Assembly (NCBI GenBank): GCA_021234155.1
Contig: JAJEKV010000011.1
Location: 13,369,255 to 13,433,254 of the forward strand
Direction: 5' to 3'
DNA length: 64,000 nt
Source of the DNA: Isoetes taiwanensis
Lineage: Eukaryota > Streptophyta > Lycopodiopsida > Isoetales > Isoetaceae
Each line of letters begins with the position of its first letter. Positions within the stretch are counted from its first letter, which is position 1. Shown one piece after another: positions 2,945 to 59,768 of the stretch. Made by a program: the position numbers and the translations under genes. The notes beneath the pieces were generated by a model that was not told the DNA's origin, did not search any database, and saw only the letters and a list, made by a program, of their open reading frames with translations.

Positions 2945-3979
2945 CTAATGAAACCTAGGTCGAAAGCGACTCTGCGTGAATTGCTTCTTCAGCTCCGACA
3001 ACTCCTGCGTTGTCATTCTATATGGAGCCTTGCTTGTTGGCTTTGTTCCTGGTTCGAGTGCTATCTCGCACTCGACTCCCCTATAAGGAGGGAGCTGCTT
3101 GATCTCATCTGGGAAGAGATCGTGGAACTCCGTGATCAGCTTAGCAACTTGCTTCGGTAACTTGCTGAGCACCTTGTCTTCTTTGCTTCCTTCCGATTCC
3201 GGCTCACTAATCTCAAGCTTGAAGATGTATGCCACTTGCTCACTCTTGATGCACTTGAACAGCCGTTTAGAAGACATACACTGCATGATGGGAACAACTT
3301 CCTTACCTGTTATCTCAATGATCTTGCCGTCGGGCGTTGGGAAGGTCACCTTCCGCTTTCCACAGTCGATAATGGCCCCTGCTGGCCCAAGGTACTCCAT
3401 TCCTATGATCAAGTCATACTTTCCAATGCCCATTACTTCTGCCCCCATCTGGATATTAATCCCTGGCAAGTCGATGTCGAAGTTAATTCTCTTGCCCGCC
3501 GTCTGCCTTACGGCACCACTTGCTAAAACAACGGGTCTTGGCTTTGACTTTAGCGGCTTCAACTTCAATATTTGAACCATTCTGGGGGATGCAAAGTTAT
3601 GGCTACTTCCTGAGTCTATCAAGACTATGAAGGACTTAGCTTTAGCCTTCCCTACTGTGGAAATTACCTTATACTGGCTCTCTGCTTGCTCTGTATCTAT
3701 TGCGGCAAAGATGTGACACTCACCCCTCGGATGTAGTCGCGGGCCTCTTCGCCCCTCGTCGTCCGGACACAGGCGCCCCAATCTCCCAACTCCGCTAGAG
3801 CTGCACTCATGGCGTAAAGGGACGGTTTGCTGTCCTATGGCACAGGCCGAAGCACCAAGCCACTGCATTGCTTTTCTATGCACTCTTGCCTCTTTTTCCT
3901 TGGGCATCGCTTGCAAAAAGGGATTGCACCGCTTTGGAGTAGTTTGACCTCTCCCCGCTTGTCCTTGAAGGACACCCAC
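2945..3979 (-). pseudogene. Gag C-terminus, aspartic protease and RT leader of element 1
   Basis: The frame contains an aspartic protease: FIVLIDSGSSHNFAS is the active-site D-S-G triad, and YDLIIGMEYLGPAGA is the flap-distal I-G-M-x-x-L motif typical of Ty3/gypsy proteases. It runs on into the pre-RT segment with LITEFHDLFPDE, LPPYRGVECEIALEPGTKP and APYRMTTQELSELKKQ. The N-terminal part before residue 90 is poorly conserved, and I do not see a clean zinc knuckle. The frame breaks immediately before the RT. Confidence 0.85.
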
Positions 3980-5112
3980 TTCTTCTCCCCGCCGCTTCCC
4001 GGGTTCCCACCATATGGGGCTCTAGGCCGACCTGGATCACCACAGGGGCTATAGCTTCTGTCGCCTTGCCTTTATCCCCGAAGTACTTGCCGCTTGTGCC
4101 CGCTATTACGAGGTCCTGACCCTGCAAGCTTATAGCCTTGGATTCCGCTTCGATCTTGTCCTAGGGTTTATTGCCCTCACAAACTTGCGGATCTCTTCAT
4201 TCAGCCCCTCAATATAGCTTTCTCTTGCATGCTTCTCTCCCAACCCGGCACATCTGACCTTAGCCTCATGAATTCCTCGTATATTTCTGAACTGATTTGT
4301 TGCCTTCTTTGTAACACGTAAAATCTGCTTTGCATCATCTTTGGACTTATGTTCCCTCGGGCGTAATGGCGCTTTTGAAGGCTTTAGCAAACTTTCGAAC
4401 TTACAAGCATCCTGCTTAAGCCGTGTGCCTTTGCATAACCCTTCCACCAAATCCGGCGGCTCCTTTCAAGTTGGCTGTTGCAACTCTGCCTTTGTCCTTA
4501 TCCTTCATGCCATAAGCATTTCCGTACTAAACTCATTTAGTCCAGCCATGCCTCTGCTTCCAATCGACTGTTCTCCCCGAGAACTGTTCCGGTTCGGGCC
4601 TTCCATACATTGCCCAGTGCGGAATCTACCTTCTTCTGGTAGTCAGAGGCCCTGGTATCTCTTTGTCGTCCCTCTGGGGTGTTCCTCTGCCTTCCATCTG
4701 TTTCGTTTCTTCGAAGCATTTCTTCCTCTTCCTCAGAGTCGGAGTCTGAGTCTGAACTTGAGTCGGAAGATTCCGGACTGGGGGATCTCCTTCTCTTGCT
4801 CCTCTTCTTGTCCCTTCCTTCCCTCCGAGCTGATGCTTGCGGCAACTGAGCATTGCCCACCGAACCCACTCCTGCTTGCGCGGATAGTAATGCCTTTATC
4901 TGCTCCGGTGTCCGTCCTCATCCGGGCTATCTCCTCCTCCTCTGGGGTCATGGGTTCCCTATCTTCAAATAGGTTCCTTGCCGGGGGTGGTCTGGGCGGG
5001 GTTTGTTCTTCTATAAGGTCTCGCAGTTGTCGTTCCCCTGCGTTTAGGCCTCTGGCTGCATACACAAGCAATTCATGGCTATATGATTAGTTCCATTTGT
5101 TCTTCTTGCATT
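3980..5112 (-). pseudogene. gag of element 1, frameshifted
   Basis: The likely start is the ATG at 5112-5110, about 70 nt after a TATA box at 5190-5181. It gives MQEEQMELII and then hits a stop. The next frame continues ELLVYAARGLN and an Arg/Glu-rich stretch with DLIEEQTPPRPPP and MTPEEEEIARM. Another frame around 4800-4740 has a basic run (KKRSKRRRSPSPES) followed by an acidic Ser/Asp/Glu run. The segment at 4450-4130 resembles a retrotransposon capsid end (ARESYIEGLNEEIRKFVRAI). At least three frame breaks are needed, so the capsid protein of this copy is not made intact. Confidence 0.7.
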
Positions 5113-5237: not shown

Positions 5238-6745
5238 CTAGTCTTGAAATCGCCGGTAAGACGGGTTGTCTTCAAGAAACTTCTTAACTTGGGCCGTCCC
5301 TACCGAGTGACCCAAGTTCCTGATGATGCTTGCTGGCGAGCCTCCCTGGATGGCTCTCACCAGGTCTTCTACCCTGCGGTCGGATGTAAGGGCCGCAGTC
5401 ACTGCTAATCTCGCCTGACGTCGGTGGGGTATGGCGAAGTCGAAGAGGTCGAGTGCCATTGCCCTCTTGACTAAGACAGCATAGTCGACATTTGTTGCTA
5501 TTCGAGCATGCCTGCCGAAGCCTGAGAGTGCAATCAGCATAAACACTCCTTCTTCGCCTCTGGGACTGAACTTGCGGTGAATTACCGCTATTCTCCCATC
5601 CATCAGCAGCGGCAAGTAGTACCCGAGACACATGTCGTTGTGTGTCGCCGAAGCTTCTCCGCTTGTTTGGCCTCGGCTCAGTGCCGCCAGTGCTCGTCGA
5701 CCTCAACCCGGTGAGCTCCACAGTAGTCTTCAATTGTCTTGGTCGAGCCTCCCGAGGTCGATTCCTTCTCCTTTTGGCAGGGGTGATATCGAAGGACCCG
5801 GCATTAGGATGCTCGTGGTCTTCCCACGGATCCAGGGCGAGGAACTCCTCCTCTGTTGGCAGCTCCCGCTCGTCCATCAATTGCCCGATCTTTGCCAGAG
5901 GCACGGATATCGGAGGTCGTCTCCCCTGTGTAGGTGTCGGACTCCCTCACTTGAAGCGGGAAGTCTGAGGCTCCCCGGACGATGAAGTCGTCCATGTCGG
6001 TCTGCCGCAGCTGGTGGAGCAGTTCGTCCAACCTGAGCTCCCTCTCCCTGCATTCGGGAAGGTTCTGGATGTCGCTGAGGAGTAGATACTCCTCTCCGTC
6101 GATGATGATAGGGGCTAGGCTTGTGATGCCTAGCCCGAGTGGGGGAGCAACTCTGATGCCCTGCTGGCTCTGCTCGAAATTGATCAGCTCCTGCTCTCCT
6201 TGGCGCCGTTCTTCGTCTGAGTCGAGCTCCGTGTATCCTTCGTCGTCCGACTCCTCTTCATCCTCTCTTGCTTCCTGTTCCTGTTGATACTGCAACAGCA
6301 TCTGCTCTTCCTCTTGCACTGCTATGGGGTCTACCTCCATCGGAGGGATAGAGGTTGCCCCCATCGGGTTCTCGGCGCGGTGGGATAAGAAGATGGCTAG
6401 GGCGGCGGTGTAAGAGAAGTACTTGGTCCTGTTGGCTGTCAGGACCATGTAGTCAGGTAGTCTCTGCGCCTTGTTAGTCAAGTATTTGGCGATGTTGGGG
6501 ACATCGCCCAAGGCTGCTTGAAGGGATGGGCGGGGAACAAAGTATCCTATGCAAGGGGGAACTTGAACAAGGGAGGGTCCTACCCTAGCTTGAAATTCTG
6601 CTAGCACCTGCCTATAAGCTGGGGTTGCATTTAGCGTAGCTTGGATGTCGATTTCTTTCACAAAGACTTGGAAGATGTCGTTGACATCTGCCTCAGTAGC
6701 ATGGGCACTGGCGCTGTACCATCGCCCAAAATCAGCAGTAGCCAT
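5238..6745 (-). CDS. orfB, unknown ~500-residue accessory protein of element 1 (two frame breaks)
   Basis: I do not recognise this protein. It starts at the ATG at 6745, 115 nt after a TATA box, and ends at a TAG at 5238. Residues 1-125 look like a folded helical domain (MATADFGRWYSASAH through YFSYTAALAIFLSHRAEN). An acidic stretch follows (EDEEESDDEGYTELDSDEER, about residues 158-180), then a segment with REDGEEYLLL-like hydrophobic spacing. After a frame break near 5915 comes a basic patch (KRRRNRPREARPRQ) that could be a nuclear localisation signal. After a second break near 5640 comes a C-terminal domain (YYLPLLMDGRIAVIHRKF, GVFMLIALSGFGR). It lies between the H3-like gene and gag on the same strand. 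Acidic tracts are common in histone-binding proteins, but that is only a hint. Confidence 0.65.
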
Positions 6746-6868: not shown

Positions 6869-7044
6869 AAAGGGGAAAACCCTAATTTTTGGATGACCTA
6901 GATTTTACTGAGATTAGGCAATTCTGATCTATTAAGGGATGCAATTGCAAGTTTGAAGACTATTTCTAGAGTTTGAGCATGCTAAGAACAGCTACGGAAC
7001 CTATTGTACAGTTGGAGATCATTTGGTGACGAATGAGTGCGGGG

Positions 7045-7113
7045 GTCTCACCGCGTTAAGCCCGGACCCGATTTCTAACATGTAGAAATCTGTCCTGGCG
7101 CGACGTATGAGAC
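7045..7113. repeat. Nested palindrome copy 1 (upstream of orfB)
   Basis: 69 bp. The outer arms begin GTCTCACCGCGT and end ACGTATGAGAC. The inner arms are GATTTCTA (7070-7077) and TAGAAATC (7083-7090) around a short loop. Copies 2-4 have the same architecture and orientation. It lies 177 bp upstream of the orfB TATA box. Confidence 0.85.
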
Positions 7114-7245
7114 ATAGGTCCTAATTGGGCTAGGATTACTCAATTTAGGTGATCTAAGGCTGTAATTCCACTAAACTCATCGAGTTAGGCAGAATTGACC
7201 CCTTACTTGGTCGATTTGGAGCTGTTTTGGGCATTTTTGGGCATT

Positions 7246-7312
7246 GTCTCACCGCGTTAAGCCCGGCCCGATTTCTAAAATGTAGAAATCATCTGGCGGC
7301 GACGTGTGAGAC
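7246..7312. repeat. Nested palindrome copy 2 (between H3-like gene and orfB)
   Basis: 67 bp with outer arms GTCTCAC and GTGAGAC and inner arms GATTTCTA and TAGAAATC. It begins 201 bp from copy 1. It also lies just beyond the polyadenylation signal of the H3-like gene, so it could serve either as a regulatory element for orfB or as a 3'-end structure of the H3-like transcript. Confidence 0.85.
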
Positions 7313-7399
7313 ATCGTCTCAATTTTGCTCAAAACTCCAATTTAATTAAAACGAAGGCTAGGGATCGATATCTTGACTTATTTAAACAGGGTTTGACAC

Positions 7400-7405
7400 T
7401 TTATT
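7400..7405 (-). terminator. Polyadenylation signal AATAAA of the H3-like gene
   Basis: The minus strand has AATAAA about 50 nt after the TGA stop of the H3-like gene at 7456. With the TATA box at 8860-8851 this makes the gene a self-contained transcription unit inside the retrotransposon. Confidence 0.5.
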
Positions 7406-7455: not shown

Positions 7456-8748
7456 TCAAGGGCGTTCTCCCTTGATGTGCCTGGCAAGATACATATCCTG
7501 CCTCATGAGGGTAACCCTCTTCGCGTGCACCGTGCAGGCCGTTGAATCTTCAAAATGCTTTACTATATGCGCTTCGGCCGCCTCCTGTAAACACAGCAGC
7601 ATCTCATCGGTCACGCGCATGTCTGTGTTGTATTCTTGGATGACTTCGCGGACCAAACGCTGGAACGGCGCCCGGGGAATCAGGAGTCCGTAACTCTTCT
7701 GAAAGTGGCGGATCTCCTTGAGTGCCCTGTCTTCCAGCTTCTTCTTCTTGTTCCGCTTCTTCCCTGGTGCTCGGGGAGGCTTGGGCTTTGGTGGAGGGGG
7801 CTTCAGTGCCTGGCTCTTCGTCGGGTGTCCGCCTTCAATCGTTCTCACCCGGTGCTCCTGGTAATAGGCATTGTAGGCCTCCCACTTTGCCATATACGCG
7901 TTGTGCTCCCTGATCCTCTTCTGATAGACCTTTAGGGGGTCTATCACATATGCTTCCCGTTGCGGCCGTGGGGCCTTGACCCTATCCCACGTCGGAAACG
8001 GTGGGGGCTTTGCTAACTGTCCAGTCTCCTCCCCTTCTTGGGCTGTCTGCTCCGGGACCTCTTCTTGTACGACCGGGGGCTTTGAAGAGCTTGCCCCGTC
8101 TGCGCCCGGCACGTAGTCTCCATCCGAGTCGTCGGTGGTGGGCGGGGTCTCCCCTCCCGATGGCTCGTTGATGACAGGACCTTCGGCTCGCTTCCCGACC
8201 TTTACCAGCTTCCTCTTGCCTGCCTTTACGGCTTTGGCCCTCCTCTTCTTGGGTCCGCTGGCTGTAGTCGGGTCGTCTTCCCGACTCTTTGTCCTCTGCT
8301 CCCGGCGGCTCGCCCAGCCGTACTTGTGGGCCAGGCGTCTTGGTCGGCCTCTTCTTCCGGGGTGAGTTCCGGCGGCTGCTCCTCTCTTCCCTGCTCCTCC
8401 TGCAGGTGGATCTCAGCCTGGGGTTGTTCTTGGGCTGTTGATGGGTCCGCCTGTTCCCTCTGCTCCTCCTGTGGGTTGGCGTCCCCCTGGTGTTGCTCCT
8501 GCTGCTGCCCAGCTTCACGCCTCTGCCGTGCAATTTTAAATTCGAGGATCGTTCATGGCGTCGGCGGTCGTCCTCCAAGAGTTACGTGTGGTGGCTCGGT
8601 CGACCCTGCTTCCTCACTTTCGGCGAAGATTACGTCGCCCGTGGAGAAAGCGTTCCCGAAAGAATCTGTGAAAGAGGCCTGAGCGGGCCGGCGAGGAGGA
8701 TCCGCTTCGGCTAGGCTTCCTTGCGATGCGCTTTGTGCGGGCCATCAT
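7456..8748 (-). CDS. Histone H3-like protein with long linker, encoded by an LTR retrotransposon (frameshifted in this copy)
   Basis: The product begins [16 protein letters not shown] from the ATG pair at 8748/8745, an H3-type tail with Lys4 and Lys9 in register and Ser10 replaced by Pro. The 87-residue C-terminus (7719-7459) aligns without gaps to canonical H3 residues 49-135, with about 47 identities counted by hand. It includes [24 protein letters not shown] and GER. Between tail and fold lies a linker of some 300 residues: a Gln/Glu-rich part, a basic part ([16 protein letters not shown]), an acidic part and Pro/Lys repeats. The tail and fold are in the same phase, but the linker from about 8685 to 8330 reads in another frame with a TGA at 8555-8553. 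This copy therefore has two frameshifts and one stop; the fold frame is open from 8412. A TATA box lies 105 nt upstream and AATAAA 50 nt downstream. Loop 1 lacks the insertion typical of plant CENH3. Confidence 0.88.
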
Positions 8749-8850: not shown

Positions 8851-8860
8851 CTATTTATAG
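8851..8860 (-). promoter_or_regulatory. TATA box of the H3-like gene
   Basis: The minus strand reads CTATAAATAG, 105 nt upstream of the first ATG of the H3-like gene and 74 bp downstream of palindrome copy 3. It is a near-perfect plant TATA box. Confidence 0.65.
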
Positions 8861-8933
8861 GGCCAATTTTAGGTCAATTTTTAAACTACCTTTTGGGTTG
8901 TCTAGAGCACCTAAAAACATCTAATTAAGCAAG

Positions 8934-9004
8934 GTCTCACGCGTTGCGCCCAGCCCCGATTCCTAGAATCTAGAAACCCTGTCTGGCGCGTGTACGTGTG
9001 AGAC
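8934..9004. repeat. Nested palindrome copy 3 (upstream of H3-like gene)
   Basis: 71 bp with outer arms GTCTCACGCGT and ACGTGTGAGAC. The inner arms are slightly diverged (GATTCCTA and TAGAAACC). It is the closer of the two copies ahead of the H3-like promoter. Confidence 0.85.
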
Positions 9005-9126
9005 ATGGTGGGGCCCACTATTAAATTAACATGTAACATGCTAAATCTACTAATTCTTAGCTTAAATTTAGAATTATCAAGGTATTTTCTTGTAATTTAC
9101 AACTTTTTGGTGTCAAAGGCTTTAAT

Positions 9127-9193
9127 GTCTCAAGACGTTATGCCCCGATTTCTAGAATGTAGAAATCATCTGGCCAGCGCTGACGTGTGAGAC
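9127..9193. repeat. Nested palindrome copy 4 (leader of element 1)
   Basis: 67 bp with outer arms GTCTCA and TGAGAC and inner arms GATTTCTA and TAGAAATC. It starts 193 bp from copy 3, close to the 201 bp between copies 1 and 2. Confidence 0.85.
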
Positions 9194-9390
9194 CCTACCT
9201 ACTTTTTGGATGTTGGCTCATCAATTTTAGTCTTTTTACGTTTTTATTCATTTTAACTGTTACTAGCTTAGCATAAATTACAAAAATGAGAAAAAAAAAA
9301 ATTCTCTCATTTTTCGAGGTTTGAGGATCCTATCAAGTTAGTGCTACTGGGAACATGGCCAGTGCTTTGCTCTTGGTCTCCAAGAACATA

Positions 9391-9402
9391 GCTCTGATAC
9401 CA
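9391..9402 (-). other. Primer binding site, initiator tRNA-Met type
   Basis: The minus strand reads TGGTATCAGAGC, complementary to the 3' end of plant initiator tRNA-Met, one base after the LTR. It primes minus-strand cDNA synthesis and fixes the direction of element 1. Confidence 0.92.
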
Positions 9403-10680
9403 CTGTGACGTCCCCTACTCGTATACGGTGCACTCACCGTATACAAACAGGAGTTCATCCCCCATACCAGCTCCATGCTAATACAGGGCCCTCCACATGA
9501 CACTGCAACCGTGACGGGTCCCAGTGGGAAGAGTGGAAGGGTCATTGCACCCCGTCTCCCTCAGGGCCTACCTAGCTGCGGAAGCGTAAACATACATGTC
9601 AGTAGCACATACATCAACATCATATGACCATCATGAAGGATGGTCCTCCACATATCTGCATAGACAAAGGTCAGCACATCACATAGGGAATCCTACCCAA
9701 GGCTCAGACTCAAAGGGATGACTGACGGGCTTGGGTCTCCAGAGTTCAGTGCAGACAGAATTCATGGCAATGGATTTGGCTGGCATAAGAACATGGCATA
9801 GGGTTGTCCACTCCATCCGCCCCTCCTGTGCACACTTTGCAGAGTAGGCTGAAAAGTGTTGGGACCTGACTGTAGCCCGCCGGATGCATAGCCAAGGGGG
9901 CTATATCCTGGGTTGCATCTCCCCAGTTCCGATGGGGCAGGTAGGGATCTCTCCCTCCAGAGATCTACATGCCGACTCAAGGTGACTAGAGGGCCACTGC
10001 CCGTATTCGACTTGAACTCAATGGAAGGTCATATTCACCACCTCACGAGTGTCGAGCCCATGCCTTGCCCACACGCAGTGGCAAGCCATTAGACCTAGTC
10101 ACAATGATCCCCGGCAGCACTAACACACCATAGGGATCGTTCAGGAGTCAGAACACGAACCTCCTTATAAGCCAGTCTGGCCCCTTCACCCACAACCAGG
10201 TGTAGCTCTTGTGCACAGGCCGCATCTACAGTGTGCTAGAGAGGCTACTCTAGGAGCATCAACTACAAAGCTTTAGGTCTCTACCCCCCTTCCCAATACA
10301 AGGAGTTCATAGAGATACATCATCTATATACATCACAGAAGAACTAAAGAATAAGATCTAATCTACAACATAGAGTTAGGTTCTTTAGTTAGAATCTGCT
10401 ATCTAGAGATCTAGAGGGCTGCTATGGCCAATCTAATAGGCTAAACCTCACGATACAATGACTAAAATAGGGTTTAGACTATCTAATTGGCCAAATACTG
10501 ATCCTTGAGAGGCTCCTCCCCGACTGAGCTCGACCATCCTCCTTGGCGCTCGAATCTAGAGAAACTAAGGATGCAATTCTCCCAGTCAGAGTCTGGGATG
10601 CGGTTTTGGCTGTTGAGGCAGCCAAAACAGAGTTCTGAAGCCCTAAAATCGAAAATTGGCCTAGTTAGGGTTTCCTACCC

Positions 10681-10686
10681 TATATA
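10681..10686 (-). promoter_or_regulatory. LTR promoter TATA box of element 1
   Basis: The minus strand reads GTCTATATAGGG here, roughly 400 bp into the LTR, which suits the U3/R boundary. Confidence 0.4.
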
Positions 10687-10791
10687 GACAAGGGGGTTGG
10701 TTAGGGTTTCCAATTATCCCCTTTTGGCATGTGGGATAATTGGAAATGGGCCCACTTGCCTTTAAGGGCTAGGTGGCCAAATGTGCACACA

Positions 10792-10934
10792 TGGAAATGT
10801 GTGCCCACATTAATGTGTACATTGGAAAATGTGCACATTAATTGCACCTATGGGTGTGGCCCACTTGGCATGAAGTGTCCACTTGGAAATGTGTGCCCAC
10901 ATTAATGTGTACATTGGAAAATGTGCACATTAAT
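10792..10934 (-). repeat. Duplicated 51-bp block in LTR U3
   Basis: The same 51-bp sequence, starting TGGAAATGTGTGCCCACATT, occurs at 10792-10842 and 10884-10934, period 92. The position upstream of the TATA box suggests enhancer-like repeats. Confidence 0.8.
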
Positions 10935-11085
10935 AGTTGCACATATTTCTGGCAAGTTGCCCCCTAGGGCTACTCACCTGGCTACACGCTTAGCGCATAC
11001 GCCACCGGAGTGGGTAAAATATATGCGGCGATTTGGGCAATCACGGTATACGCCCGGGGCGATCTTTCTTGGCCGAAACGTCACA

Positions 11086-11494: not shown

Positions 11495-11915
11495 GGTATA
11501 AATTTATACCACAATAGGTAGTGCTGTGCGGATATAACATGCCAGAGAGTTCGCATGGTATAAATTTATACCGCAAATGGACTCGAGCGGTATAAATTTA
11601 TACCGCAAGAGGACTCGAGCGGTATAAATTTATACCGCGAGAGCTCTCTTGATTCACTGCGAGAGCTCCCACGGTATAAATTTATACCGTGAGAGCTCCT
11701 TCATTATACCGCGAGAGCTCTCTCGGTATAAATTTATACCGCGACAGCTCTCTCGGTATAAATTTATACCGCAGACAACCTTCAGACAATCAATTTATAC
11801 ACATATATGTGTATATATATATAATAATATATATACATACTTACATATATATATCCGAAGAAAAGAGAACTCTTGCGGTATAAATCTATACGGAGAAACG
11901 GTATAAATTTATACC
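11495..11915. repeat. Array of a 16-bp palindrome GGTATAAATTTATACC
   Basis: Exact or near-exact copies start at 11495, 11557, 11589, 11621, 11673, 11725, 11755, 11877 (degenerate) and 11900. Intervals often carry a second palindrome, GAGAGCTCTC or GACTCGAGC. A partial copy lies near 12598. Spacing is irregular (30-120 bp). Apparent reading frames across it simply follow the repeat. Confidence 0.9.
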
Positions 11916-21395: not shown

Positions 21396-22091
21396 GATCC
21401 ATATGTATGCAAAGTGTGGAAATTTAGGTGGAGCACTTAACCTGTTTGAAAACTTGTCAAATTTGAATGTGGTGTCATGGAATGCAATGATTACAAGTAT
21501 GCCATTGAAAGGTCCACTTCTTGCTCTTGAATGTTTTGAGAAGATGCAAAAAAGTGGCATACAAAAGTGTCATGGGGTGCAGTTATTGCAGGATGTGCCC
21601 AGCATGATGAAGCATCTAGAGCCCTAGAATGTTTTGCACAAATGGTACATCTAGGCATAAAACCAGACAAAGAAGTATATTTTAGCACGTTGAAAGCGTG
21701 TGCCAGCTTGGGCGAGGTAGAACAGGGCAGGCTTCTCCATAAAAAGATTATCAATGATAATTTCCAATCAGATGTTGTTTTGAGTAATACACGTATTGAT
21801 ATGTATGTTAAGGGTGGATCGATCCAAGAGGCATATGAAGTGTTTGACAGCTTATCAGAAAAGAATGTGGTCTCATGGGATGCTATGATTGCTCTTCAGC
21901 ATGGCCAATTTTTCGTTGCACTAGAATGTTTAGAAAGGATGCACCAGGAAGGTATGGAGCCAAATAATTTTGTATTCTTAAGCATCCTAAAAGCATGTGC
22001 CTATATTGGGAAGGTAAGCCATGGCAGAATAGTGCACAAGTGTGTAATTAGAAGTGGTTTTTGTAAAGATGTATTCATAGGAATGAGAATG

Positions 22092-22758
22092 ATATTTTAT
22101 CGTCCACTGAGGCCAATCGGCCTATGGGACCCATAAGGAGCGCAGTAAACTTATTACTGTCCGGGTTAAAAAAAACCCCGCCCCGAAGGGTTTTCGAGGG
22201 AAAAACCGTGGCAGTAATAAGAATGCTGTCAAACTGTACAAGTATACATCAATGTATATATACATGTCAAGTGTGTGCCCGAGGACATAGCTGATCTCGC
22301 ATGTCCATAACCTCCTGAAGGTATGATCCCAAAGACCGCATGGGATCTTTGTGCTCAATGTCACATGTAACGGCTGGCGGGGCCCGACCAACTTCGGCAT
22401 TAGCATCCGGAATTTGATCATATCTTTGGGGCAACTTTGAAGGGTATGAGATTCATCCTCAATGACTCCCATTTGGCGGCATTGACAGAGCATCCCCGGC
22501 GTGGCTCACCAATCCATCCGCCTGCCTCAATTCAAGATGGTGCCCCCGATGCGAATGGAGGCAATGAGTCTGCGCCTTTTCATGGGCAAGTGGGTACGCA
22601 GGTAGCATTGCGGGCCTCGTTCCAATGTGGGGTTTATGTGGCGCTGGTAGTGTGCTGTCTTGACATGTTCAAGGGCATTGGCATCCCAAAGCTTGCTGAG
22701 GAAGCGAGCGTCAAGATATTGCCTCAAGCTATGGCGATCTGCCTCTGTTTGCACCTGT
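22092..22758 (-). mobile_element. 5'-truncated LINE fragment, reversed in the PPR pseudogene
   Basis: Minus-strand frames give RTHLPMKRRRLIASIRIGG and then CQCRQMGVIEDESHTLQSCP, a Cys/His arrangement like the zinc-binding region at the end of LINE RT proteins. The 3' tail (22200-22130) is a stem-loop with arms CTTATTACTG and CAGTAATAAG. The insertion splits the PPR reading between DVFIG and IDMYAKCG. No RT core is present. Confidence 0.7.
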
Positions 22759-42740: not shown

Positions 42741-43170
42741 GGGCTAAAAAACATGTATACAAAGAAAAAATATATAAATTTTTATACAGCGTTCTTTTCA
42801 AATTCTAAGGCGCCCAAATTAGAGCGGCGCCCGAGTACGTTTTTGGGCCCTTTTGACGACATTCTGATGCTGGATGTTAATGTCCCTAGGGTAATTGGAT
42901 CGTGCTTGATGCGTTGGCGCAAAAATTGCCTCAATACGAGTTACCTAGAGAAAGTTGTGGCCCATGGGAACAAGGGACCTCTTTCTGCTGAAAAACTTGA
43001 CATACTTGATTCTAAGGACTCACACCTTAATTCCTAACTAGCTTAATCCTCCCATAATTAGGTCAACATACATACTAGCTACAGTTTATCCTAGATCAAA
43101 GTCCCGTACTACCTATCGACTAACGAGTTAGAATATGGCCAGTGCTATGATCTGGTCTACCAAAATCATG
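42741..43170 (+). other. Unassigned region between SINE heads and LTR 2
   Basis: A 94-codon frame (42753-43037, RPSTFLGPFDDILMLDVNVP, GSCLMRWRKNCLNTSYLEKV) looks protein-like but is unrecognised. The last 50 bp before the PBS (ATGGCCAGTGC) match the leader of element 1. Confidence 0.3.
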
Positions 43171-43182
43171 GCTCTGATACCA
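43171..43182 (-). other. Primer binding site next to LTR 2, initiator tRNA-Met type
   Basis: Reads TGGTATCAGAGC on the minus strand, one base from the LTR, exactly as in element 1. Confidence 0.9.
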
Positions 43183-43183
43183 C

Positions 43184-44663
43184 TGTTACGCTCCCCGAAT
43201 CCATACGATGCTCCCAACATATAAATACGAGAAATTCTCCTCCCATGGCGACACCACGGAAAGGCCATCCGTCTAACTCGGACCACTTGTGATAGCCAAG
43301 TGTCCGGGTGAAGGACACGGAGGTGTCATTCGTCCCACGCTTCTATGGGAATCCTATATAGCGGAAGCGTACATACATGTTAGCACCTGGCAACACTACC
43401 AATAAATAATATACCACCATGAAGGGTGATCCATCCATCATCAATACAATTAACAATAGAGTACCAATATAACAAAGGAAATGCACCATAAATAAGGGCT
43501 CTACCCACCCTGCGCTCAGACTCCATGGGGTCAACTAACGGTCAGGGCCTCAAGATAACAGCAGACAGAGGTATAACATGGCGTTGGCTGGCATAGAACA
43601 ATGGCTAGGGTAGTCCACTCCATCCGCCCCTCCTGTGCACACTTTGCAGATAGGCTGAATCATGCTATGACGTGCTTGTAGCCCTCCGGAGATGCAATCC
43701 CAAGGAATCACCCTATGGGACTACTCCGGGTTACATCTCCCTGGTTCGATGAGGCAAGTCAGAGAAGCTTCTCCTCCTGGATCATAACAGTTCTTTGGGT
43801 GTGCTAGAGGATACCCGTCACACCTGCAGCACCCGTATCCGTACCCGACTTACCCTCCTAAATCTACACAAAGTCAAGGACGTCCATAATGGCCATATCC
43901 AACGACCCAGGAGGTGTCAGACCCATACCTGACCCAGGCAAAGTGACCGACTATAGGCCTAGCACACTGTAGGAGCCCCAGTAGCCACGCTCAGCAAGCC
44001 TCCACCCCCGATTCCCCAGTTGTGTCCGTTGTCTGGTGCTGAACCATATCATAGCATCCTCAGCTAGGTTGGCGCTTATGCACAGGCCGCATTTACTGGG
44101 TTTTAAGGGTTCTATCTAGGAACATCTCTACTTCTAGATGGCCTTTAGATCTCTATCCCCTTTTTACCCATACAACACAGGAGGAACAGAAGGAAAGCTA
44201 TCCTTATACATCCATCCATCCATAGCTTCGAATAGCACATAAAATAGAGAGACTAATCATTTATCTAACAAACAAGGGTTAGTTCCTAACTAGAATCTCA
44301 AGCTAATTAAGCCTACTAACCGATATCTGAGCCAGATCTCCCATCTCTTAGGTTCTCCACGCCCTGCTGGTGGGATGAGCTCCTCCTCCTTCTCCAACTG
44401 CCCCCCAATTTGAATTGGGGCAAATGGGGGTATAAAACCCCAATTTGGGTCCCAAGTTAGCAACTCTCTCTTGCCCAATCGATTTGGGCCAGGTGGCAAC
44501 TCCAAATTGGTTAATATTAACTAATTTAATATTTTAACTCATTTTAATATTAGGTTAAGCCCTAAATTCGAATTAGGGTTTAGGGTTTAGGGGCCATTCA
44601 TTATTCATAGCGACGTGCAGGTATTTATACTCAAAAAGGCATATAAATACGTGGAACGTCACA
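43184..44663 (-). repeat. Second LTR of the element 1 family (5' LTR with PBS, body lost)
   Basis: 1480 bp from TGTTACG to CGTCACA. It shares the block CCACTCCATCCGCCCCTCCT, CACTTTGCAGA and the general layout with 9404-11085. The PBS and about 50 bp of leader remain on its left, but the H3-like gene, orfB, gag and pol are absent, so only the 5' end of a family member persists. A satellite begins at its outer edge. Confidence 0.85.
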
Positions 44664-54527: not shown

Positions 54528-55464
54528 CTAGATCCAGTATTTCTTCAAGAGGTAAGCATTAACGGGGTGAGGAAGTTGGTGCAGCTGCATATCTGCAAGA
54601 AAATAAGAGTTAGCACCAGCATGGTCTAGAATAAAAAAGGGTCCTTCCCACAAGTGCGCAAATTTGGGCGGCATTTTTTCTTGAGCTCGATTCCACTTAA
54701 GAACAAGTTCCCCTTTCTGAAACTGATTGTGTATCCTGTTGTTTCTTGCGAATGTGGCCTCTTCTTTCTTTTTTTGTACTGTGATTTGCTCAAGTGCTTG
54801 AGCCCTGTCTTCGTCTAATGCCTCTAACATCATCAATCGATCCTCCACTGCTTCTGTTGCTGATAAGGACTGCTGACATATTAGCTTGAGAGCTGGAATT
54901 TCAATATGGACTGGAAGAGTGGCTTCGATCCCATAAACTAATTCAAATGGAGTATGCCCTGTAGCTGTTTTTTGGGTAGTTCTAAATGCCCAAAGAGCAT
55001 TGGATAGTTGCAGATGCCAATCACGTTGGGATGCGTGGACTTTTTTTGAGGATGCCCTTCAAAACCTTATTGGACGATTCTGCCTGCCCATTACCCTGGG
55101 GGTAGTAAGACGAACTCTTGGTGTGCCTGATTTTGAGTTGCCTGGTCAATGCTTGCATGGTATCATTCATAAACTGGCTACCTCTATCTGATAGAAGCTT
55201 TTGAGGCACTCCAACCTGCAACAAATGTGAGTAAATATGAAGGAAGCGGTACTTACAGTAGTCGCTTCCCTTAATGGTACTGCTTCCACCCATTTGGTGA
55301 AGAGATCTGTTGCTGCAAGAATGTAAGCATGTTGCCCGGATGATAGTGGCTCTATCTTCCCTATGAAGTCCAATCCCCAACATTGAAACGGTCCAGGTGA
55401 GATGATCCCCTTCAGTAACTCTGGCTGTAAGATCCTTCTCCCATGCAATTGGCATTTCTGACAC
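54528..55464 (-). pseudogene. Integrase second half of element 2
   Basis: LLSDRGSQFMND holds the second catalytic Asp and QGNGQAESSNKVL the catalytic Glu. After a frame break, ARNNRIHNQFQKGELVLKWN and WEGPFFILDHAGANSYFL form the C-terminal domain, ending LPHPVNAYLLKKYW. No chromodomain is visible. Confidence 0.88.
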
Positions 55465-56747
55465 CGCTTAGTGTGTTCATGGCAGTCTCTAAATATGGTA
55501 GGCCAATAGTATCCTGCGCGCAGTATTTTCTTTGCTGTGGTATCTGCTGAAAAGTGCCCTCCGCAGATGCCTTCGTGACAATCCTGCATCACCAGCTCCT
55601 GTTCTTCTTCATCTAAGCATCTGAGATAAATCCCATTTCTATCTTTCTTGCATAAGACATCGCCCAACATGGCAAATCCTAGACATTTTTCCTTGAATCT
55701 CCTAACTGCACTCTTGGTCAAGCCCTCTGGTAGTGTTTGATGTTGCAAAAAATTCTGCAATGGTGTCATCCAAGTACTTTCTGCCACTATGATGTTTAAA
55801 TCTGTTTCATGGATATCCTCCTCTGCAGTGATGTCATGAGAAAAAAAAGCATAAGGCAGGTATAGGCTGGGACTTCGCTTACCATCAAAGATTTCCACTT
55901 GTAAGTCAAACCTTGATAGCTTGACTGCCCATCTGTAAAGCTTGTCCTTTTTCTCCCCTTTATTGAATAGGATTTTGACGGGATTGTGCTTCATGTAGAC
56001 AATAATTTTTTGATTGTAGAACAGATAACCATACTTATCCGCTACAAATACCAACCCTGCTGCATATTTTTCATACTTGGGGTACCTTTCCTCTGTGCTG
56101 GTCCATTGTTTTCCAGAGTAAGCGATTGCTCTCTTCCCTTCTGTTAAAGCAATACCTACAGCTCTACTGGTGACAGTGATATAGACATGGAATTCTTGCT
56201 CAATATTTGGGGACCCTAAGGCTGGTTCCCTATTAAGAACTGCAATCACACTTTCAAAAGCCTCTTGACATTCGCGGGTCCAGGTAATGGGGGCGTATTT
56301 GCTCTTGCCTTTCTCTACGTGACCTACCCGTGTGAGCCTTGATATGGGATTGATAATGTGAGCAAAATTAGGAACATGCAGCCTGAGGAAGCTCATCATA
56401 CCTATCAAGCGCTTCACTTCCTTCAAATTGCTTGGTGGTGGAAGCCTCTGAATAGCTGCTACTTTGTCGTCTGCCACTTGAATCCCTGCAGTTGAAACTT
56501 CATGGCCAAGCAACAGTCCCTTTTGGGTCGAAAAAATACACTTTTTAGGGTTAATACACACGTTGAAATCCCTGCACAAAAGGCACAGTTGCCTGATCAT
56601 ATAGAGATGGTCTTCTCTTGTGATAGCTAGGCACAAATCGTCAAGAAATATTCTGAAGTTCTTGGTAGGCATAGATCTGAACACTGTGTCCATCGTCCTT
56701 TGGAGTGTTGAAGGCGCATTCATAAGCCCAAAGGGCATCCTTTTCAT
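55167..56747 (-). pseudogene. RT palm, RNase H and integrase N-terminus of element 2
   Basis: A 526-codon open frame contains MPFGLMNAPSTLQRTMD, the catalytic IFLDDLCLA box, RLIGMMSFLRLHVPNFA, RNase H with FHVYITVTSRAVGIAL (catalytic Asp replaced), TSTEERYPKYEKYAAGLVF and VYMKHNPVKIL. The integrase zinc finger is HEGICGGH..CQKCQLHG, and GLDFIGKIEP carries the first catalytic Asp. The RNase H here looks degenerate at the acidic residues. The frame ends at a frameshift inside the integrase core. Confidence 0.92.
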
Positions 56748-57604
56748 CGCAAAGGTCCCCCATGGTGTAATAAATGCTCCACTTTCACACAGATTTGATT
56801 AAAGCCCGAAAACCCATCCAAAAAAGAATAATACTGATTACCTGCCACAGCGTGCAAGACTTCTTCGAGAAATGGTAACGGATAGAAATCCTTAAGAGTT
56901 GCCTTGTTAAGCTCCTGGTAATCTACACAAATTCGTATGCTCCCATTTTTCTTGCAGACCGGTACAATGCATGAAACCCAAATGGGGTTTATTATCTCTA
57001 CAATAAGACCAGCTTCCAACATCTTTTTTATTTCAGCTTGTATCAAGGGCAATAAGGCTGGGTTTATCCTTCTCAACTTCTGCACCACTGGTGTTACTCC
57101 GGGTTTTAGTTTAATTTCGAACTCACAAACATGAGTTGGTATTCCCTTCAACTCGTCATAATCCCAAGCAAATATGTCTGACATCTCTTGGAGTGTCTTT
57201 TGCAGAATTTGTAAGTCTCCTTGTTCAATGTTCGTTCCTACTGCCATCTGTCTTGCCTTCCCATTTTTTGTCACCAGAACTTGCTGCACACTTGTCTCCT
57301 TGCTAGTGTCTATCACCAAAACATGATGCATGTGTTTTAGAGCATCATCTGGAAGATCCTCTTCTGGTATGGACTGTTCCCTGAGGTAATTCAATAAGGT
57401 CTCTCTACACACCAAATCAGCCTCCATATTGTTTCCCCTAGGAATGTGTTGTATGCTCCCTTGCCCAAAATTTTTCAATATTTCCAATGCTAGATCTCTG
57501 TATCTGCACATATCCTCATGCTTGGCTTGAAATTCGCCTGTTAATTGCTTACAAACCAGCATAGAATCACCAAAAATATGCAATTGCTTGATCCCTAAAT
57601 CCAT
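56744..57604 (-). pseudogene. Extra RNase H (second half) and RT fingers of element 2
   Basis: The frame opens LGIKQLHIFGDSMLVCKQLT and SIQHIPRGNNMEADLV, which is the second half of an RNase H fold (F-G-D-S and N-x-x-A-D). It continues with the pre-RT leader (IFAWDYDELKGIP, EFEIKLKPGVTPV) and RT motifs SCIVPVCKKNGSIRICVDYQ, LNKATLKDFYPLP and SFLDGFSGFNQI with the first catalytic Asp. The RT continues at 56747 in another frame. Confidence 0.88.
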
Positions 57605-57607
57605 TGC

Positions 57608-58207
57608 TTAAATAAGGCCCATAAGGAGAGCCTCATATTCTGCTGCATTCGAAGTTGCTGCAGGAACTATCTTCCCTGATTGACCAACTATTCTTTTACA
57701 AGAGTCCTTAAGAACTGCCCCAGCAGCAGCTACTTGAGCTTCTTTTGATATGCCTCCATCAAACCATAGACTGGCAGTTGTGTTGCACTGGGCTGAAGTC
57801 ATCATGAGCACTGATCCTGCAACAGTGGTTCTGTTTTCACCCTCATCCCTAAACATCCTTGTATAGTCTTCTTGCTCATTTGTTGGGGCTGCATCAAATC
57901 TGTCTATTTCCCAAAGTCCCATGCCTTTAGATTGCAATAAGTCTTCTGCCTCCAGGAACATGAGCTCCTCTCCACATGACGGGCCAACTCCTGCTCCTTC
58001 TCTGTTGTATAGCACTGTCCTATTTGTGCCATCTGTTATGGAGCAAGTCCCCTGAGACCAAACTGGTCTAGCATCAATTGTACGCATCCATTTCCGTCCC
58101 AAAATCAGGTCATACAAATTACTGCAACTTTCTGAGCCAAAGGACACCACCACAAAGTCTGTGATGGCAAGTACTCCTCCCACATCAATATTTACATTGG
58201 TGATCAT
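57608..58207 (-). pseudogene. Protease C-terminus and extra RNase H (first half) of element 2
   Basis: YDLILGRKWMRTIDARP is the protease end. Then ASLWFDGGISKEAQVAAAGA, SGKIVPAATSNAAEYEALLM gives the first half of an RNase H with F-D-G-x and A-E-Y-x-A. A stop separates it from 57604, where the fold continues. The domain lies between protease and RT. Confidence 0.85.
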
Positions 58208-58230
58208 CCCTACGGGCTTAACTTTATGGT

Positions 58231-58977
58231 TTACATCAGCATGAGTGTGGTAGGAGCATCAATCTGCATCTTAAGTCTATGCATGATATGTAAGGGCATA
58301 ACATTCAACCCTGAACCCCTGTCTAAGAATACATTTTTGAGGGTCACATTATTGAGCACAGCTTCACACATGAAAATACCTGGGTCAACATCTGCTTTGG
58401 GTAATACGAGGTTCATGGCACAATATTCTTGATCTTCCTCCACGAGCTTGAAGAGTTGTTCCCTGTATTTTGGGGCTGCCTTGAGTAAGGTCACCAGGCC
58501 TATGTTGACCCTCGCATTCTTTAACAGCTGTGCTATTTCACAATTGTCTGATTGGTTCTGCTCTGCTTTGTGAGTTGGAGCTGTTACCCTCAGAGAGTCT
58601 TTTACCTGCTGTGCCCTGGTCTGAACTGCAAGGACCTGCTCTCCTTCTTCATGGACTTCTACTAGGCAGAAGGGTGTGCTGGCTTCCCCCTTTTTAGCAT
58701 TCTTATCTCGGTCTTGTTTAGAGAAGTACTCTTTCACCAAGCATCTGTCATCTAAATGCCCAACTTCTTTACAAAACGAACAGATTGGGCACTCTCGCCC
58801 AAAGTGCCCTCTTTTCCCGCATTTCTGACATGGTTTTGAAAAACATCTAGCCTCCAAATGTCCCATCCTATTGCAGTAAGCACATACTAACCCGGAGTTC
58901 GAGGAAGAGATCTGCTGCTGACCTTTAACTGCTTCTGCCAGCTGTTTGGAGACCTCCATAAGACTTTGCATACTCAA
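58231..58977 (-). pseudogene. Nucleocapsid with three zinc knuckles and protease start of element 2
   Basis: CAYCNRMGHLEARC, CQKCGKRGHFGREC and CSFCKEVGHLDDRC are three consecutive CX2CX4HX4C knuckles, which bind the RNA genome. The protease then starts; its active site reads FLDRGSGLNVM, with Arg in place of the Ser/Thr that normally follows the catalytic Asp. The frame breaks before 58207. Confidence 0.92.
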
Positions 58978-59057
58978 TTCCAGCTTACTTGTAGCCTTGG
59001 CAACTTCAGCCTTTATTTCTTCTTCAATTTTGATCTTCTTATCTTTAGCAAAGGCTG

Positions 59058-59768
59058 CTAAACACGGTTCGGCCTCCTGTTGTAGTCAGCTGCATACCCT
59101 GGTCCTTCCTCCTCAGGCAAAGGATGCTGCAATTTTGATAATTCTATGGCCTTAGAGAAGGCTTTATAGACTGAGTCCAATAGCCCCAAACTTTGCAGCT
59201 TGAACATCTTTCTGTATAGCTTAGAATGTGGTTTCAGACCAGCCACAAAAAAACACACCATATGATCCGTAGGTGTCTCTACTTTCTGCTCCTGGCATCT
59301 CAGAAGATAAGAGTTAAATCTTTCCACAAAAAGATGTATGCTCTCGCCCCTCCTAATGGTCATAGTGCAAATCTCTTGTACCAACCCATTCTTGGTGCTC
59401 ACGGTGCCAAATCTTTCCAAGAAATTGTGCACTAATACCTCCCATGTGGTTATCTGACAGCTCTTTTGATAAAGAAACCATCCCTTGGCATCTCCCTTCA
59501 TTGCAAGACCAAAGACTGAAATCTTGTCTCCTTTCTTCTTACCAAAATCTGCATAATATTCTTCAAAGTGGCTCAGAAACTCTGTAGGATTTTTGGATCC
59601 GTCGAATGTAGGTACTGGAGTAGGCAGGTTTACTTCAATTTTATAAGGGGGAGGCATCGAATGTACCTCTGCTACTGCTGTGCTACCTTCTCCTGCATCA
59701 GCTTCTCCTGTAGTTTTGCTTTTGGGTGGCATGCTTGTGCCTTTGTGCCAGACAATGCTCTCAGTCAA
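59058..59768 (-). pseudogene. gag capsid of element 2
   Basis: PTPVPTFDGSKNPTEFLSHF, FGLAMKGDAKGWFLYQK, FLERFGTVSTKNGLVQEI and RGESIHLFVERFNSYLLRC are the retrotransposon gag capsid signature. The frame ends at 59058, and the nucleocapsid continues in another frame at 58977. Confidence 0.92.

Follow-up and report, generated by a model that had tools for sequence, protein, structure and literature searches.

Histone H3 is a DNA-packaging protein, and core histone genes carried by mobile genomes are already known from fungal DNA transposons and from DNA viruses. In Pyrenophora tritici-repentis, hAT DNA transposons harbor an H3-like gene in 26 recent, near-identical copies with corresponding ESTs, and the question of whether such a passenger alters chromatin has already been raised (PMC3538342). 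Pseudocercospora fijiensis carries 784 H3-like copies that are RIP-inactivated and mostly truncated, and hAT-borne H3 genes also occur in other Dothideomycetes (PMC6710886). On the viral side, the histone H4 of a bracovirus, whose tail is extended, becomes part of host nucleosomes, and the main text of the review of single viral histones that describes it contains no use of ‘retrovir’ or ‘retroelement’ and two uses of ‘transpos’ (PMC9145170). Plant LTR retrotransposons, for their part, can carry additional forward-oriented ORFs in their 5′ region, most of which share no domain within a lineage while some contain lineage-typical modules such as the plant mobile domain; the main text of the same source, where ‘histone’ occurs once and refers to chromodomain binding, does not name an H3 gene under selection in a pair of families (PMC6317226). 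The word is absent from the main texts of the papers on Isoetes taiwanensis (PMC8566536) and Isoetes sinensis (PMC10541799), the latter of which describes that Gypsy elements have expanded in Isoetes. A search of the open-access literature without preprints, by title and abstract start, likewise retrieved no histone-encoding retroelement, a result that is not proof of absence.

The stretch of I. taiwanensis DNA analyzed here (64,000 nucleotides, referred to as the window) contains a Ty3/gypsy chromovirus that represents a single insertion of about 13.4 kb, with every part on the minus strand in the order primer binding site (PBS), ORF1 (the histone H3-like gene, hereafter retro-H3), ORF2, gag region, protease (PR), reverse transcriptase (RT), RNase H (RH), integrase (IN) and a chromodomain piece. 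The 5′ LTR (9404–11085, 1682 bp) ends in TGTGACG...CGTCACA, and its partner lies directly left of the window at about −608 to −2285, with 93.5% identity over the main BLAST piece of 1625 columns; the two differ by 72 transitions and 54 transversions over 1660 aligned places (K2P 0.080), and the 5-bp target-site duplication TAAGT abuts the outer end of each. The partner LTR and the flanking TAAGT place the LTR and gag-pol in one insertion and exclude their origin from separate insertions, which had been named as a refuting case. Paired LTRs with TG..CA ends, a target-site duplication, a PBS past the 5′ LTR and the PR-RT-RH-IN order are all present as in Ty3/gypsy elements, and the element has in common with chromoviruses the LTRs, PBS, domain order and a chromodomain at the integrase end.

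Past the PBS TGGTATCAGAGC (9391–9402) follow two hairpin repeats (9125–9197 and 8932–9007), an internal TATA motif belonging to ORF1 (8852–8859), ORF1 itself (7456–8745), an AATAAA (7400–7405) and two further hairpin repeats (7244–7316 and 7043–7116). ORF2 (5241–6745), which is frame-broken in the window, is open over about 528 codons in many other copies, and the pieces of it tried against Pfam gave no match. The gag region (4133–5090) consists of several broken frames; a piece of it also gave no Pfam match, and the corresponding place in a locus of a second element family (L062, see below) scores as Ty3_capsid and Retrotrans_gag. Downstream, Pfam identifies an aspartic protease region (RVP_2, 2948–3979), the reverse transcriptase (2169–2939, E 4.1e-40), RNase H (1625–2017), the integrase core (842–1371, with rve at E 2e-9 on the piece 1042–1371) and an integrase SH3-like tail with the chromodomain (361–690; SH3_Tf2-1 E 1.8e-18, Chromo E 1.1e-4). 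The predicted placement of the H3 gene between PBS and gag on the element’s strand therefore holds, except that an additional gene, ORF2, sits before gag.

Elsewhere in the window, a cluster of GGTATAAATTTATACC palindromes (11495–11786) adjoins the 5′ LTR, and a diverged LTR relative (43131–44175, minus strand; 78% identity over 200 bp) precedes an identical PBS string, beyond which the window shows no match to H3 or pol. A second Ty3-type element (55021–59768, minus strand) carries an extra RNase H-like domain (RVT_3) ahead of its reverse transcriptase; the position of the archaeal-type RNase H is reported to vary within the Tat lineage (PMC6317226). Positions 21567–22136 on the plus strand hold a piece of a pentatricopeptide repeat gene.

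The H3 assignment of ORF1 is well founded. The 218-residue frame that holds the fold (7459–7743) scores PF00125 with E 1.1e-27; the best PDB matches are histone H3 (E 4e-28), ungapped across 88 residues and with the alpha-N helix included, and 52 of 90 residues are identical to canonical host H3. These E-values and the recurrence of the fold in the genome exclude a chance origin. The tail-like start was located at 8745 (tail tip 8716–8745), and the gene’s own TATA motif (TATAAATA at 8859–8852) and AATAAA (7405–7400) are likewise in place, so that the predicted fold, start and control signals are all borne out. An open gene in the window is not: the frame from the ATG at 8745 closes after 43 codons, the fold frame is open over 7459–8412 only (318 aa), and frameshifts and stops lie between tail start and fold.

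Searches of the assembly (1,658,258,908 bp in 1110 contigs) reveal the H3-like gene in many copies. With a 93-residue query of the window-type fold, the best 150 of 9101 candidates were all at least 91% identical, and by hand count 41 of these 150 lie in an open frame of at least 400 aa and 6 have a stop inside the match. A canonical H3 query recovered 15 canonical genes (97–99%) and at least 135 loci at 71–87%, with open frames of up to 567 aa. Queries with ORF2 and RT scored at least 127 copies of 11,494 candidates, with the frame of about 528 codons recurring, and at least 148 copies of 33,467 candidates, respectively. From these two lists we drew samples blind to H3, taking every 7th row for ORF2 (18 rows, hand count) and every 12th row for RT (13 rows), so that copies of the window’s own family (family A) were picked by resemblance to its ORF2 or RT. 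The fold was found about 1 kb upstream of ORF2 in 14 of 18 loci, the much decayed L043 among them, and at the expected place in 10 of 13 RT-picked loci. In four misses (L048, L051, L055 and L056) homology to the window element stops short of the fold, and in three (L072, L073 and L076) the fetched stretch holds no match longer than 150 nt to the window element; in all seven, family sequence around the H3 place is itself absent. Loci picked by H3 similarity gave the converse picture, with the downstream spacer and ORF2 in 7/7 other loci and the upstream spacer in 6/7 (L007 being the exception), compared with neither spacers nor ORF2 at any of the 15 canonical H3 loci. The H3 gene is thus a standing gene of this chromovirus lineage, located between PBS and ORF2/gag, and, as in the fungal hAT elements, has been multiplied inside a mobile element. 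The blind samples and the selection data below rule out a chance insertion of a host histone copy.

A second element family, B, joins a domain of about 300 residues to an H3 fold. Its ORF1 spans about 408–421 aa in seven rows with a start, with the N-terminal ~300 residues conserved, and its fold is closer to the host protein (in L032, 79/90 residues identical to host H3 and 53/90 to the window fold). All 15 loci fetched from the 71–87% group of H3 matches (L024–L038) are family B, and a query with its N-terminal part scored at least 129 copies of 4591 candidates, with the fold present in 12 of 13 picked. In L059, ORF1 lies 0.75 kb past a PBS string identical to that of the window element and ahead of ORF2, with no gag-pol pieces within its 10 kb; among five B loci checked downstream, gag-pol pieces follow on the same strand in three (L061–L063), and the only gag-pol copy in L060 is on the opposite strand. 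L062 contains Ty3_capsid, gag, protease, RT, RNase H and integrase domains, with 78–79% (RT) and 80% (IN) identity to the window element. Family B does not start with ARTKQTARK: MA-x-T or MTNT stands at the beginning of all seven rows that have a start. Residues 86–91 are TFAILA in 7 B rows. Homology of the B N-terminal domain to ORF2, considered on a resemblance by eye, was not supported, with an hhalign probability of 0.1 from shallow alignments, and AlphaFold predictions of B ORF1 and ORF2 (pLDDT 43 and 35) carry no usable confidence. In L025, another ORF2-like frame lies upstream of the B H3 fold on the same strand, an arrangement that suggests recombination or nesting between families.

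Many family A copies start with MARTKQTARKP, which reproduces canonical H3 residues 1–9 and loses S10, and the remainder of the H3 tail is replaced by about 330 residues. Intact copies, which the original prediction had proposed to seek, do exist: MARTKQTARKP and the fold share a single uninterrupted frame in L041, L044, L046, L054 and L068, that is, in 5 of 24 blind loci with a script-read fold frame. At least 8 of the 11 positions of this start are matched in 19 of 32 located A copies, compared with a maximum of 6 in 200 shuffles. For the tail itself we examined 39 A loci, located it in 32 and used 23 rows that score at least 6 and are hence preselected for resemblance; in these, K4 is present in all 23 and K9 in 19, and at position 10 P occurs in 16 and R in 4, while no row has S. 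Within the fold, C110, K115, T118, D123, L126 and I130 are invariant in all 18 A rows, H113 and R116 are each kept in 17, and R72, R83 and R69 are found in 17 (with one stop), 17 and 16, respectively. Other positions are strongly unlike host H3: R63 is replaced by P, K64 by R and L65 by A or G, and residues 86–91, a patch that steers chaperone choice in H3 variants, mostly read DEMLLC. E77 occurs in the 15 host H3 genes, in 15/18 A rows and in 5/7 B rows, compared with just 7 of 185 matched places in 120 listed database matches, many of which are double histones.

Putative control signals recur together with the gene. Of the 21 A copies with a located fold (26 loci examined), 20 have a TATA motif upstream of ORF1, and where the start pattern was matched as well, in 14 copies, the motif precedes the start by 105–115 bp; the AATAAA is present in part of the copies only. 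At least one hairpin was found downstream of the fold in 22/22 A copies examined and upstream in 16/22, mostly 67 nt long and near perfect in copies other than that of the window. Rfam gave no match at gathering score for the hairpins of L049, L001 and L041, the weak miRNA-like match reaching 27.1 bits against 54, and we made no use of seeming covariation, which is partly alignment shift.

To estimate selection, we computed pooled pairwise NG86 ratios, a crude measure for which dS near saturation and row choice are further weak points. The A fold has a dN/dS of 0.060 (codon bootstrap 0.036–0.093) at a dS of 1.23 in 17 blind copies plus the window (n = 18), indicating strong purifying selection across copies, and 0.057 in RT-picked copies plus the window (n = 8). 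Broken or incomplete fold matches (L042, L043, L046 and L057) were omitted from the ORF2-picked sample, and these together with L064, L065 and L069 from the set of 18. The value is 0.152 for the A pre-fold part (n = 12) and 0.158 for ORF2 residues 1–200 (n = 16), the latter from ORF2-picked rows. For the B fold we obtained 0.099 (0.056–0.152) from 12 loci picked by the N-terminal part, with the decayed L095 (23/90) omitted and L088 and L089 kept despite shifted ends. Tail residues 1–9 give 0.072 in the 23 preselected rows and the next 20 codons 0.64 without gap correction. Still lower fold values of 0.013 and 0.017 came from loci picked by H3 similarity, which are biased, and are superseded by the blind samples. 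As judged from codon substitutions, the fold is under purifying selection, which in family A extends to the first nine tail residues; because decay after insertion raises dN/dS, the constraint on the active lineage likely exceeds the measured values. As with the bracovirus H4, a captured core histone is therefore under selection in a mobile genome.

The original prediction of a captured host H3 gene, expanded between tail and fold, stands as far as a selected H3 gene in an LTR retrotransposon lineage with an expanded tail-to-fold region is concerned; on its donor the phylogeny is more equivocal. In a tree of 35 rows and 90 columns, families A (100/100) and B (100/99) are each monophyletic. For groups defined after the first tree was seen, a clade of A and B is marginally rejected (p-AU 0.040), B with the host is compatible with a host H3 donor for family B (p-AU 0.41), and A, B and host together are not rejected (p-AU 0.133). 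The tree excludes folds with stops or not found by script and omits P0066, P0079 and P0087 (misaligned or double), with L046 trimmed. Two captures are possible, as is one capture followed by fast change in A. Family A groups with the metagenomic H3-like proteins P0094 and P0108 at 87/86 (not starred). Together with P0096, P0115 and P0120, these are H3-like proteins with novel N-termini, 59–87% identical to P0108, on ENA contigs of 10–117 kb, and have IRH-QK and LCLQEAAEA in common with the window fold; they may represent H3 genes that mobile elements or viruses carry in other hosts. A search of IMG/VR for family A and the P0094 group returned none, and five-residue-word searches of protein databases yielded no relatives at E ≤ 0.001, either among 199 candidates for the pre-fold part of A or among 3028 for the N-terminal part of B. 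We also considered an origin from CENH3/CENP-A, which like retro-H3 has diverged from H3 and bears a long N-terminus unlike that of H3, and which the LIP-APF and VTLMR stretches of retro-H3 presumably echo in its plant form. Plant CENH3, however, has one added residue in loop 1, whereas loop 1 of retro-H3 is not longer and its fold aligns to canonical H3 without gaps, and, unlike CENH3, many copies retain the first nine canonical tail residues; on this loop 1 comparison with canonical H3 we rejected the origin.

Taken together, we consider it probable that retro-H3 is a nucleosome-competent H3 variant. A short mRNA of its own would yield the protein, which would use its conserved fold and four-helix-bundle residues to pair with host H4 and could enter nucleosomes on element DNA and/or host chromatin, where its altered tail may change silencing. 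A nucleosome-entering variant with a simplified tail agrees with what selection has retained, the H4-pairing fold and residues 1–9, and with the replacement of all other tail sequence. In family A, K4 and K9 sit in their exact H3 context while everything from S10 onward, K27 included, is a long linker, such that the resulting nucleosomes could bear neither K27 methylation nor the usual tail acetylation and repression of new element copies could be blunted. The loss of the K27 context could help the element because H3K27me3 marks transposons in some plants, namely many of those of the liverwort Marchantia and those of the hornwort Anthoceros; in the moss Physcomitrium, H3K9me2 is the mark found on most transposons (PMC10952607). 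Since K9 is kept, K27 loss would be no help if Isoetes silences mainly via H3K9, as reported for Physcomitrium (PMC10952607), and, as family B lacks ARTKQTARK, the two families do not share a role of the tail. The specific anti-silencing role is a tentative proposal. The whole account, in which an H3 variant is built into nucleosomes and changes silencing, is nonetheless the best explanation and a reasonably probable one, even with the window copy and many others broken and AATAAA missing from part of the copies. It is rather doubtful, though conceivable, that the lineage makes its own H3 variant for privileged nucleosomes in a chromatin state of their own, with the K4/K9 tip kept, no S10 phosphorylation and no K27 mark, and that the sister family would do likewise via a different N-terminal domain, possibly after a second H3 capture into the same backbone.

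Other readings draw on part of the same evidence. Retro-H3 might associate with the cDNA while this is still unintegrated, or travel within the particle, in which case the new DNA would be packed into element-made instead of host-chosen nucleosomes ahead of integration; selection and fold residues would look the same, and unintegrated retroviral DNA is known to exist in nuclear forms that are silenced (PMC8621569), but a TATA motif beside ORF1 and the lack of a gag fusion speak against particle-level dosage, and we regard this as unlikely. A role outside nucleosomes, for example binding host H4 or histone chaperones to reach the nucleus, or acting as a decoy for proteins that write and read H3-tail marks, would account for the long novel N-terminal extensions of both families and for the changed 86–91 patch. 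It appears improbable, as the almost invariably kept four-helix-bundle residues are hard to explain without a tetramer or nucleosome.

The chromodomain raises the further prospect that retro-H3 marks target chromatin, its K9-methylated tail being read by the element’s own integrase chromodomain to guide integration. The kept ARTKQTARK context, with S10 in 0/23 rows, and the presence of a chromodomain favor such a loop: the window retains a 35-residue Chromo piece (22.5 bits, below the curated cut-off of 25.1), and chromodomain-like sequence was found in 8 of 10 regions fetched from other copies. In all eight chromodomains read, aligned by eye to HP1, the first and third cage aromatics are, however, replaced by I and L. 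By these residues they are of group II as described (PMC3350952), not of CHD group I with its three H3K9me-cage aromatics, and no binding partner is reported to have been found for group II domains (PMC3350952; PMC6317226). With two of three cage aromatics absent, and with no K9 tail in family B, we rank this reading low and hold it to be very improbable. Mere hitchhiking, in which a copy of host H3 landed in a single element and persisted there as a functionless passenger, would agree with the broken window copy, the many other broken copies and the fungal precedent, where most hAT-borne H3 of P. fijiensis is dead cargo (PMC6710886). A fold dN/dS of 0.060 at a dS of 1.2 does not fit neutral drift, however, and the H3 gene occupies the same place in two diverged families, which leaves this reading with a negligible probability.

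The nucleosome-entering variant we favor thus has partial counterparts among the known systems. Fungal hAT elements and the retro-H3 element both carry and multiply an H3 gene, but the former are DNA transposons with terminal inverted repeats and 8-bp target-site duplications, and the latter has LTRs, a 5-bp duplication, RT and integrase. Moreover, the retro-H3 fold is held at dS above 1 with the tail tip kept and the remaining tail rebuilt, whereas the passages on the fungal elements report no selection across diverged copies (PMC3538342; PMC6710886). The bracovirus H4 type matches retro-H3 in that a single core histone was captured, is nearly canonical and has a lengthened N-terminal tail, and differs in its carrier, a DNA virus or virus-derived genome rather than an RNA-copied element. 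The literature searched gave no report of a histone gene under selection in a retroelement. Counts of H3 genes, H3 antibodies and H3-tail ChIP can all be misled by the hundreds of near-H3 sequences that this genome contains. As natural H3 variants with a rebuilt tail and with residues 1–9 and the fold fixed, the retro-H3 proteins offer a test of which parts of H3 are needed. Finally, if retro-H3 enters nucleosomes, the element would set marks on its own chromatin and would provide a handle on escape from silencing in an early-diverging vascular plant.
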